64,000 nt of DNA, taken from the NCBI RefSeq assembly GCF_024137965.1, contig NZ_CP099975.1, positions 1,426,001-1,490,000 of the forward strand, written 5' to 3'. Every line of letters begins with the position of its first letter. The first letter of the stretch is position 1. The notes below the pieces were generated by a model. It was not told the DNA's origin, did not search any database, and worked only from the letters and a program-made list of their open reading frames with translations. The stretch comes from Halomonas sp. Y3 (GTDB lineage Bacteria; Pseudomonadota; Gammaproteobacteria; Pseudomonadales; Halomonadaceae). The position numbers and the translations under genes are program-made. Positions 11,948 to 14,632 of the stretch are shown here, one piece after another.

Positions 11948-12153
11948 TGTCGCTCCCTCGTTTTCGGCTTGAGCCTGCCCCAGCCTACACCGGAACGGCT
12001 CGGTCTGGCATCGCCACTTGGTCGGCAGTCAGGGGGCCTGGGTCGGCAGGGGACGTCATGACGCCTGTGTGACCGGCTGATACCATGGGCGCCATCCCTC
12101 TTGTGCGCGGCTCCGGGCACTCCCGCCGCCGCCTCGCTTCACGGAAGAGCCCC

Positions 12154-13731
12154 ATGACTCGATCCCGCCCCCAGGCCACCATGGACGACGCCCTCTCGCC
12201 GCTCTCGCTCAGGCGCGTGGGCATCGATACCTACCGCGAGAACGTGGCCTACCTGCATCGCGACTGCGACCTCTATCGTGCCGAAGGCTTTCAGGCCCTC
12301 TCCAAGGTGGAGGTGCGCGCCAACGGTCAGCGCATCCTGGCCAGTCTCAACGTGGTGGATGACCCCGCCATCGTCGACTGCCAGCAGCTCGGCCTCTCCG
12401 AGGACGCCTTCGAGTCCCTGGGCGTCGAGGAGGGGCTACCGGTCAGCGTCTCCCAGGCCGAGCCGCCGGCCTCGATTCCGGCGCTGCACCGCAAGATCAA
12501 CGGCGAACGGCTGACCCGGGATGATTTCCGGGCGATCGTTCAGGACATCGCCGAGCTGCGCTACTCCAAGATCGAACTGACCGCCTTCGTGGTGGCCTGT
12601 GACCTGGGTGAGATGGACCGCGAGGAGATCTATTACCTCAGCGATGCCATGTGCCGCGTCGGGCGCCGCCTCGATTGGCACGAGCATCCGGTGGTGGACA
12701 AGCACTGCATCGGTGGCATCCCCGGCAACCGCACCTCCATGCTGGTGGTGCCGATCGTGGCCGCCCACGGCCTGCTCTGTCCCAAGACCTCCTCTCGGGC
12801 GATCACTTCGCCGGCGGGCACCTCCGACACCATGGAGATGCTGGCTAACGTCGACCTGCCCTTCGATGAGCTCGAGAAGATCGTGCGGACCCATCGTGGC
12901 TGCCTGGCCTGGGGCGGTACCAGCCAGCTCTCCCCGGCCGACGACGTGCTGATTTCGGTGGAGCGGCCGCTCTCCATCGACTCCCCGGGCCAGATGGTGG
13001 CCTCGATCCTCTCCAAGAAGGTGGCCGCGGGCTCCACCCACCTGCTGCTGGACATCCCGGTGGGGCCCCATGCCAAGGTGCGCTCCATGCCCGAGGCGCG
13101 TCGCCTGCGCAAGCTGTTCGAGTTCGTTGCCGCACGCATGGGACTGACCCTGGACGTGGTGATCACCGACGGCAGCCAGCCCATCGGCCGCGGCATCGGC
13201 CCGGTGCTGGAGGCCCGGGATGTGATGCGGGTGCTCACCAACCACCCGGAGGCGCCCATGGACCTGCGTCAGAAGTCCCTGCGCCTGGCCGGGCGCATGC
13301 TGGAGTTTGACCCGGACGTGCGCGGCGGCGACGGCTTCGGCATCGCTCGGGACATCCTCGACTCCGGGCGCGCCCTGGAGCGCATGCAGGCGATCATCGA
13401 TGCCCAGGGGGCCAGGCCCTTCGACCCGGACAACCCGCCCCTGGCGCCTCACGCCTTCGAGGTGGTGGCGCCGGAAGATGGTGTGGTGATCGGTATCGAC
13501 AACCTCAAGCTGGCGCGCATCGCCAGGCTGGCCGGTGCGCCCAAGGCCGCCGGTGCGGGTATCGACCTGGCCGCCCGCATCGGGGACGAGGTCAAGGCCG
13601 GGCAGCCGCTCTATACGGTCTATGCTGCCTTCCGCAACGAGCTGGCCCTGGCCCACCAGTCCAGCGAGCGCGACAGCGGCTTTACCCTGGGTCATCGCGA
13701 CGAGCTGACCCATCTCAACGTGGAGATGTGA
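12154..13731 (+). CDS. Thymidine phosphorylase family protein, AMP phosphorylase type
   Basis: The 525-residue protein has an extra N-terminal domain of about 85 residues before the pyrimidine phosphorylase core, as in archaeal AMP phosphorylases (nucleoside monophosphate + phosphate to base + ribose 1,5-bisphosphate). The core carries [14 protein letters not shown] (DKH-SxGGVxGN type rather than the KHSTGGVGD of thymidine phosphorylase), [48 protein letters not shown] and [12 protein letters not shown]. The start at ATG 12154 is chosen for GGAAGAG upstream; 12085 and 12181 are alternatives. The next gene, a PRPP synthetase homologue, begins one base after the stop, so the two are almost certainly coexpressed. 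Activity is inferred from family features. Confidence 0.85.
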
Positions 13732-13732
13732 C

Positions 13733-14632
13733 ATGGATGCCGCCCTGCTTCATTTTTCCGACGAGGCCGGGCCGGCGCGGCGCCTGGCCGACGCCTGCCG
13801 GCTGCCGGCCCTGGTGGTGGAACGCCACCGCTTCCCCGACGCCGAGCTCAAGCTGACCCTGCCACTTGGCGACGAGCGGCCGGTGCCCGCCACCCTGGTG
13901 CTCTACCGCAGCCTGGACCGCCCCAACGACAAGCTGGTCGAGCTGCTGCTGCTGGCGCGGCACGCCCGGCGCCTGGGCGTGGCGCGCCTGGTGCTGGTGG
14001 CGCCCTACCTGGCCTATATGCGCCAGGATATCGCCTTCCATCCCGGCGAGGTCGTCAGCCAGACCATCATCGGCGGCTTCCTGGCCGAGCTCTTCGATGC
14101 GGTGATCACCGTGGACCCCCACCTGCACCGCATCGAGCGCCTGGAGCAGGCGATTCCCCTCGATCATGCCATCGCCCTCTCCGGTGCGCCGCGGCTGGCC
14201 GAGCTGATCGCCGGAAAGCGCCCCGAGGCGCTGCTGCTGGGCCCCGACGAGGAGGCGCTGCAGTGGGTCTCCCAGGCCGCCGAGCTGACCGGGCTCGACC
14301 ATGCGACCTGTCGCAAGGTGCGCCATGGCGATCGCGACGTGGAGATAGCGCTGCCCGATGTCGAGGTGGCTGGACGGCGAGTGGTCCTGATGGATGACGT
14401 GGCGAGCTCCGGCCATACCGTGGCCCGTGCCGCCGAGGCCCTGCTGGCGGCGGGGGCGCTTTCGGTGGACCTGGCGCTGACCCACGCCCTCTTTGCCGGA
14501 GATGCCCTGGCGGTGATTCATGCTGCCGGGGTGGGGGAGGTGTGGAGCACCGACTGTATCGCCCACGACAGCAATGCCATCGCCATGGCGCCGGTGTTGG
14601 CCCAGGCGCTGGATGAGGTGCTGGCCGGCTGA
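13733..14632 (+). CDS. Ribose-phosphate pyrophosphokinase (PRPP synthetase) homologue
   Basis: The 299-residue protein has both Prs domains. The ATP-binding region shows RFPDAELKL (usual F-x-D-G-E, here alanine for glycine) and YLAYMRQDIAFHPGE. The site-defining DPHLHRI supplies the conserved histidine, GPDEEALQWV matches the SPDxG loop, KVRHGDRDVEI keeps the catalytic lysine/arginine loop, and VVLMDDVASSGHT is the ribose-phosphate-binding loop. It is shorter than housekeeping Prs (about 310) and is paired with an AMP phosphorylase-like gene rather than standing near ispE/pth, so it is probably a second, specialised paralogue. Whether it uses ribose 5-phosphate or ribose 1,5-bisphosphate is unknown. 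Confidence 0.82.
   Translation: MDAALLHFSDEAGPARRLADACRLPALVVERHRFPDAELKLTLPLGDERPVPATLVLYRSLDRPNDKLVELLLLARHARRLGVARLVLVAPYLAYMRQDIAFHPGEVVSQTIIGGFLAELFDAVITVDPHLHRIERLEQAIPLDHAIALSGAPRLAELIAGKRPEALLLGPDEEALQWVSQAAELTGLDHATCRKVRHGDRDVEIALPDVEVAGRRVVLMDDVASSGHTVARAAEALLAAGALSVDLALTHALFAGDALAVIHAAGVGEVWSTDCIAHDSNAIAMAPVLAQALDEVLAG

Follow-up and report, generated by a model that had tools for sequence, protein, structure and literature searches.

Within the 64,000-nucleotide stretch of Halomonas sp. Y3 analysed here (contig NZ_CP099975.1; the window hereafter), two co-directional genes separated by a single base encode a nucleoside monophosphate (NMP) phosphorylase-type enzyme and a paralogue of phosphoribosyl pyrophosphate (PRPP) synthetase, for which the working name Prs2 is used. 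The phosphorylase and Prs2 are a real unit that is co-inherited across many proteobacteria. The reading favoured for this unit, held with about even confidence, is that of a dedicated ribose 1,5-bisphosphate (R15P) module in which Prs2 would be the R15P-handling partner of the phosphorylase and not a second housekeeping PRPP synthetase; on that last choice taken by itself the balance tips slightly towards the R15P partner. The link between the phosphorylase and R15P is well supported by genomic context; the substrates, products and direction of flux of the module are inferred.

A first-pass annotation of the window placed the two genes one base apart and took their pairing to be meaningful. 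The spacing is confirmed, and the pairing goes beyond chance. In a survey of 299 proteobacterial genomes the phosphorylase family (NF003338) is found above its cut-off in 35 and Prs2 (NF005537) in 33, all of which lie within the 35 (Fisher p about 6e-42, uncorrected for kinship). A further genome, G285, has a Prs2 of 299.6 bits (cut-off 322) adjoining the phosphorylase and forms the 34th pair genome, leaving G249 as the only phosphorylase genome with no Prs2 above the cut-off or adjoining. At least one copy of Prs2 directly follows the phosphorylase in 33 of the 34 pair genomes; in G293 it lies a few kilobases upstream. The 35 genomes are not independent, as 11 belong to one family (f32). Pairwise distances of the two proteins are correlated (Mantel r 0.896, n=34, reached in 0/999 permutations), a value to which the kinship of related genomes contributes. 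At all 80 named loci examined the Prs2 match begins directly downstream, at most 300 bases from the end of the phosphorylase match; they are the 80 best among 585 retained candidates, a list that was itself capped, and are biased to close relatives of the window. The pair is also carried by mobile elements: at E 1e-5 the phosphorylase has matches in 172 plasmid records, in 107 of which the match covers at least 80% of its length, and a Bradyrhizobium Prs2 has matches in 102 records at E 1e-20. Six peptide patterns detected no relatives of the phosphorylase on viral contigs. The host genome itself is Halomonas-like, with named Halomonas and Billgrantia loci 81-87% identical to the window phosphorylase.

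The phosphorylase, whose length is counted from the ATG at 12154 (an in-frame ATG lies upstream at 12085), scores 704.5 bits with NF003338 (cut-off 434) and 615.5 bits with TIGR02645 (cut-off 434.6). It stays under the cut-offs of the DeoA/PyNP models, with 198.7 bits for 269, 195.6 for 409, 149 for 570.7 and 141 for 559. The closest solved structure is 4ga5/4ga6 (358 bits), deposited as a putative thymidine phosphorylase; we take entries 4ga4-4ga6 to be the archaeal AMP phosphorylase TK0352 of Thermococcus kodakarensis, which has the same domain layout and motifs as the window enzyme. Residues 73-497 align to 53-477 of the 4ga5 chain and residues 1-72 are unaligned, so that the alignment reaches into the N-terminal domain. 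The DKH..GG, SSRAITS and S..SKK columns are invariant in an alignment of 19 phosphorylase sequences (A1), and the motifs named in the first-pass annotation are present in the proteins. The AMP phosphorylase homology that it proposed is upheld by NF003338, TIGR02645 and the 4ga5 alignment, and stops short of the AMP_phos equivalog model. Archaeal NMP phosphorylase is described in passages of PMC9700705 as phosphorolysing AMP, CMP and UMP directly to R15P, and the window enzyme, judged by its family, likely acts as an NMP phosphorylase. If the NCBI family name, 'thymidine phosphorylase', were taken at face value the enzyme would act on thymidine or uridine and the pair would serve ordinary nucleoside salvage, for which the lack of a DeoA in the host genome may also speak (none was found, the PF00591 matches being a TrpD-like gene and the window phosphorylase only). 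This explanation is very improbable, because the enzyme reaches 502-704 bits with archaeal or NMP-type models compared with 141-199 bits, under the cut-offs, for nucleoside-phosphorylase models, because the same-genus genome G086 has, in addition to the pair, another match, under the cut-off at 191 bits, resembling a nucleoside phosphorylase, and because the fusion to PhnN described below makes little sense with a ribose 1-phosphate product.

Prs2 has the fold of a PRPP synthetase. Its AlphaFold2 model (predicted local distance difference test 96.7) superimposes on solved structures with Z 35.4 over 285 residues (root mean squared deviation 1.6), and the first 38 rows of structural matches are PRPP synthetases and associated proteins (Z 35.4 to 29.4), after which the scores fall to 15. 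The closest solved sequence is the Methanocaldococcus jannaschii PRPP synthetase 1u9y, and the score with NF005537 is 363 bits (cut-off 322). With the canonical Prs of bacteria and archaea it shares the FxDxE motif (F34, D36, E38), R97-Q-D, H130, the catalytic K195 and R197, and the DD..T loop (D221-D222, T229); FPDxE is present in 76/80 named Prs2, the other four being incomplete, ambiguous or YPDGE. The assignment of the ATP site, the ribose 5-phosphate (R5P) loop, the catalytic Lys/Arg and the diphosphate loop presumes that residue roles established for the Bacillus enzyme apply.

Prs2 differs from canonical Prs in its diphosphate loop, in its D.H.HR and Asp200 signatures and in its linkage to an NMP phosphorylase. 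PDxGG is present in all 21 canonical sequences (20 fetched and the one from the host genome) and in 0/80 named Prs2, 79 of which have a GPDxE[SA] loop and the remaining one APDGEA. In aligned columns Glu174, His132, Arg133 and Asp200 are found in 34/34 Prs2 of the pair genomes and Trp178 in 33/34, and each of the five in 80/80 named Prs2. Canonical Prs, readable in 17 of the 21 aligned rows, have Gly for Glu174, Gln for Arg133 and Arg for Trp178, and the M. jannaschii, S. solfataricus and T. thermophilus chains retain Gly at the Glu174 column. The pattern PDxG[G/A/D] is absent from Prs2, the use of this loop to define the family being a criterion of our own. The altered loop argues against an ordinary PRPP synthetase, without choosing between PRPP and R5P as the product.

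To our knowledge, R15P has few uses in bacteria (PhnN, phosphonate breakdown). The partners of archaeal NMP phosphorylase are R15P isomerase and RuBisCO, as set out in parts of PMC9700705, whereas the partner of the window phosphorylase is Prs2 and, elsewhere, PhnN. The first-pass annotation had reported neither RuBisCO nor R15P isomerase, and in profile searches the host genome likewise has no match to either, which sets it apart from the archaeal pentose bisphosphate pathway; it does have a PhnN, at C1:684354, away from the pair. PhnN converts R15P to PRPP (PMC11452294 and PMC9700705, in part) and belongs to a guanylate-kinase-like family (it gives sub-cut-off guanylate kinase matches) that is unrelated to Prs2. 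In G249, a search with TIGR02322 finds PhnN in one open frame with the phosphorylase. The fusion protein scores 168.8 bits for PhnN (cut-off 156, residues 5-178) and 543.5 bits for NF003338 (residues 171-587). The fusion is present in 3/60 genomes searched, namely G249 and its same-family relatives G325 and G328, and also in Variovorax sp. SRS16 (717 residues), Pacificitalea manganoxidans (708 residues) and Paraburkholderia sp. 22B1P, where it is unannotated, giving six in total. The clearest hint that R15P is the product of the phosphorylase and is handled by Prs2 comes from this fusion to PhnN, which consumes R15P, in a genome without Prs2, and the connection to R15P guessed in the first-pass annotation gains strong circumstantial support from G249 and the five further fusions. 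PhnN is above its cut-off in 8/35 phosphorylase genomes, G249 included, and R15P isomerase in 0/35. The archaeal RuBisCO shunt was rejected as a general reading on the lack of RuBisCO in the host genome and of an above-cut-off R15P isomerase in the 35.

By analogy with the archaeal enzyme, the first step of the module would likely be NMP + Pi ↔ base + R15P, catalysed by the phosphorylase, and Prs2 would then connect R15P to R5P or PRPP. As Prs2 retains the catalytic Lys/Arg, the R5P loop and the AMP/ATP site and differs in the diphosphate loop, transfer of one phosphate in place of two is the simplest chemical idea. The reaction judged to fit best is R15P + AMP ↔ R5P + ADP, which would be PRPP-synthetase chemistry minus one phosphate; a PhnN-like reaction, R15P + ATP → PRPP + ADP, is about equally likely. 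The beta-CASP ribonuclease (RNase) that is encoded in the cluster in many bacteria could supply NMPs from RNA, and the pentose could be fermented through phosphoketolase and acetate kinase, a scheme that would suit use under low oxygen or stress.

The PhnN-phosphorylase fusion is preceded directly by nadC in 6/6 loci, and transport genes are found nearby (a TTT-type binding protein in L220, a TRAP transporter in L222 and, named by eye, an MFS-like gene in L103). From gene order alone, we propose that this operon encodes a putative PRPP-recycling route from quinolinate to nicotinate. Quinolinate + PRPP would give nicotinate mononucleotide (NaMN) + CO2 + PPi, NaMN + Pi would give nicotinate + R15P, and R15P + ATP would give PRPP + ADP, closing the PRPP cycle. 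The position of bug27 next to nadC and phnN in Variovorax has already been noticed, and Bug27/Bug69 bind quinolinate (PMC11452294); the term 'thymidine phosphorylase' is absent from the text of that paper in the portion available.

Among the neighbours of the pair, a beta-CASP RNase-like gene adjoins it in 14/35 genomes. The closest solved relative of the one member tested, from L083, is the ribonuclease TTHA0252 (236 bits); neighbour clusters were named by a family scan of one or two members each and the remainder by similarity. The beta-CASP family is commoner in phosphorylase genomes than in same-family controls (22/35 versus 8/45, p 5.6e-5, kinship unmodelled; one of the eight control matches, in G200, is a fragment of 30 positions), and with f32 left out, a post hoc choice, the counts become 22/24 and 8/37. 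At L074, L091, L092, L093 and L097 the pair has a phosphoketolase or divergent phosphoketolase-like gene next to it; genes of the acetate-kinase cluster are close by at L091, L092, L093 and L101, as are short genes named acetate kinase in Methylophaga. Matches of the divergent phosphoketolase-like type, a category chosen post hoc, number 5/35 versus 0/45 controls (p 0.013). Phosphoketolase as a general partner was rejected on its overall frequency and is retained as a local neighbour only.

Evidence on regulation comes from Bradyrhizobium. In B. diazoefficiens, Table 2 of PMC6515984 lists bll3117 (thymidine phosphorylase family; protein log2 2.1, transcript 5.1-fold), bll3116 (ribose-phosphate pyrophosphokinase; 4.4, 7.7-fold) and bll3115 (metallo-beta-lactamase (MBL) fold; 2.9, 15.4-fold) as increased under microoxia. 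In Table 2 of PMC9104804 bll3117-bll3116-bll3115 form a predicted operon for which a putative FixK2 box is given, and loss of fixK2 lowers bll3117 6.6-fold and bll3115 30.6-fold; the same table gives bll2518-bll2517 (phosphoketolase, acetate kinase) a FixK2 box of its own. In the text examined from these papers the three genes are listed with no function assigned to them. From the names, the order and the B. septentrionale locus, where phosphorylase, Prs and MBL-fold genes follow each other in the same order and the Prs bears the Prs2 signature, we infer that these rows are the phosphorylase-Prs2-RNase trio. FNR/FixK-type boxes with at most one mismatch (no shuffled control) were found once each in L081 and L089 among 21 loci scanned.

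A bolder form of the module can be drawn from these observations, in which Prs2 would be a new R15P:AMP phosphotransferase that evolved from PRPP synthetase through the change in its diphosphate loop. Together with the phosphorylase and the beta-CASP RNase it would constitute a mobile, oxygen-regulated system that breaks RNA down and so feeds phosphoketolase fermentation with free bases, pentose phosphate and ADP, with the nadC-fusion operon as a sister catalytic PRPP cycle. As a whole this picture is unlikely.

A number of findings weigh against the R15P module. All of the canonical ATP, R5P and catalytic residues checked (FxDxE, RQD, KxR, DD..T) are present in Prs2, which also exceeds the cut-off of the general ribP_PPkin model TIGR01251 (169.1 bits, cut-off 113), so ordinary PRPP synthesis is possible. 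Prs2 would then be a divergent PRPP synthetase (R5P + ATP → PRPP + AMP) whose loop only tunes allostery or kinetics and whose AMP or PRPP serves base exchange and salvage beside the NMP phosphorylase. To this tentative alternative the retained fold and residues and the subfamily score lend support. It has to contend with the presence of a separate canonical Prs in the host genome and in all nine other pair genomes from which one was fetched, and with the replacement by Glu, in 34/34 and 80/80 Prs2, of a Gly that is otherwise constant in the diphosphate loop; it also leaves unexplained why PhnN takes the place of Prs2 in the fusion. The first-pass annotation had allowed that Prs2 might be the only Prs in the genome, which is excluded by the housekeeping Prs at C1:2699464 (418 bits). 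Its interpretation as a whole is partly supported: the R15P link is strengthened and a sole Prs excluded, with action of the phosphorylase on NMPs, the reaction of Prs2 and the direction of flux remaining putative.

Further difficulties for the R15P module concern its chemistry. The phosphorylase, at 501.9 bits, is under the cut-off of 535 of the AMP_phos equivalog TIGR03327 and differs in this from archaeal AMP phosphorylase. RuBisCO is present in 18/35 phosphorylase genomes, where a RuBisCO route is possible, and 18/35 have matches to the R15P isomerase model under its cut-off (139-187 bits versus 314). R5P as the product of Prs2 would depend on the reading of one loop, and the PhnN of the fusion points to PRPP, not R5P. 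The chemistry is read from genomic context, which cannot prove it. Others concern the arrangement and regulation. Adjacency has exceptions: in Azospirillum ramasamyi Prs2 is on a different plasmid from the phosphorylase and RNase, and in Niveispirillum the phosphorylase and RNase have no Prs2 adjoining. The beta-CASP family is found in 0/11 f32 pair genomes, and phosphoketolase overall in 12/35 versus 8/45 controls (p 0.12, not significant). The gene order of bll3117-bll3116-bll3115 is that of the B. septentrionale trio, whereas the window pair adjoins neither an RNase nor a phosphoketolase gene. A scan upstream of it that allowed up to 2 mismatches gave no FNR-type box (TTGATN4ATCAA). The host genome does carry a divergent phosphoketolase-like gene and two genes of the beta-CASP family, all unlinked to the pair. 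In Table 2 of PMC6515984 bll3115-bll3117 are unchanged in bacteroids and are not marked as direct FixK2 targets.

The flow might also run in the anabolic direction. Prs2 would then form R15P, using R5P + ADP or else PRPP, and the phosphorylase would condense this R15P with free bases, so that NMPs arise without PRPP and for less ATP. The same Prs2 anatomy would fit, and phosphorolysis equilibria presumably lie on the nucleotide side in general. Induction at low oxygen (PMC6515984, Table 2) would suit such an energy-sparing salvage. We consider this direction improbable, as the RNase and phosphoketolase neighbours suggest breakdown.

If the R15P module is real, this conserved unit, which can be plasmid-borne and responds to oxygen in Bradyrhizobium, would form an R15P node between RNA turnover and carbon/PRPP metabolism in proteobacteria. 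Removal of the base from nucleotides to give R15P is known from archaea, and the pair would be a putative bacterial version. The comparison also suggests that, within the confidently annotated PRPP synthetase fold, one loop may mark off a subfamily whose chemistry differs, and that the name 'thymidine phosphorylase family' misleads for many genes. In the open-licence literature no functional description of the pair was found among the matches listed, and PRK07199, PRK04350 and TIGR02645 are named in no paper. Among the matches listed for R15P with PRPP no title concerned the pair, the comma form of the R15P name being unsearchable.

Table 1. Coordinates of the gene pair in the window and of the nadC and PhnN-phosphorylase fusion loci in other genomes.
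Feature	Position	Strand	Remarks
NMP-phosphorylase-type enzyme, 525 aa	12154..13731	+	NF003338/TIGR02645; extended N-terminal domain, thymidine-phosphorylase-type core
Prs2, PRPP-synthetase paralogue, 299 aa, altered diphosphate loop	13733..14632	+	NF005537
Prs2 diphosphate (PP) loop codons, G170-P-D-E-E174-A175	14240..14257	+	Glu174 Prs2-specific; Gly in canonical Prs
Prs2 flexible loop codons, K195-V-R197-H-G-D200-R201	14315..14335	+	catalytic K and R kept; Asp200 Prs2-specific
nadC + PhnN-phosphorylase fusion	L103:7425-10080		
nadC + PhnN-phosphorylase fusion	L220:7159-10154		
nadC + PhnN-phosphorylase fusion	L222:7125-10091		
nadC + PhnN-phosphorylase fusion	L246:6827-9479		
nadC + PhnN-phosphorylase fusion	L247:9140-11703		
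nadC + PhnN-phosphorylase fusion	L221:7148-9710		

In the window the genes on both sides of the pair (Table 1) are on the opposite strand. They are apparently unrelated to it, a ketopantoate-reductase-like gene before and an M42-peptidase-like gene after, named by eye from the list of open reading frames. In three f32 genomes (L070, L071, L085) NfeD-like and slipin-like genes, also named by eye, are directly upstream of the pair.

Proteins of the divergent phosphoketolase-like family are about 790 residues long, and at four loci (L091, L092, L093, L097) the gene for one is next to the pair; the L093 member scores 131 bits against the phosphoketolase cut-off of 962. The host genome's own member, at L243:7622-10297, is 58% identical to it, and a partial homologue at the right end of L200 is annotated as 'xylulose 5-phosphate 3-epimerase'.

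At five annotated plasmid loci (L201, L202, L250, L251, L252) the pair is beside copper/heavy-metal P-type ATPase genes. The trio is present at these loci, the gene table of L202 showing the pair only, and DUF2933 and isoprenylcysteine methyltransferase-family genes are found in 4/5; the plasmids are typed as conjugative in 4/5. Prs2 on Azospirillum plasmids (L195, L196, L248, L249) has a GPDEES loop and no annotated phosphorylase near, and is annotated just as prs. Finally, in G255 (L104:9095-12509) a phosphorylase-like frame diverges after the core, matches the profile only to position 341 and has a stop within the match. A beta-CASP-like gene is oriented head to head with this frame, which may be decaying.

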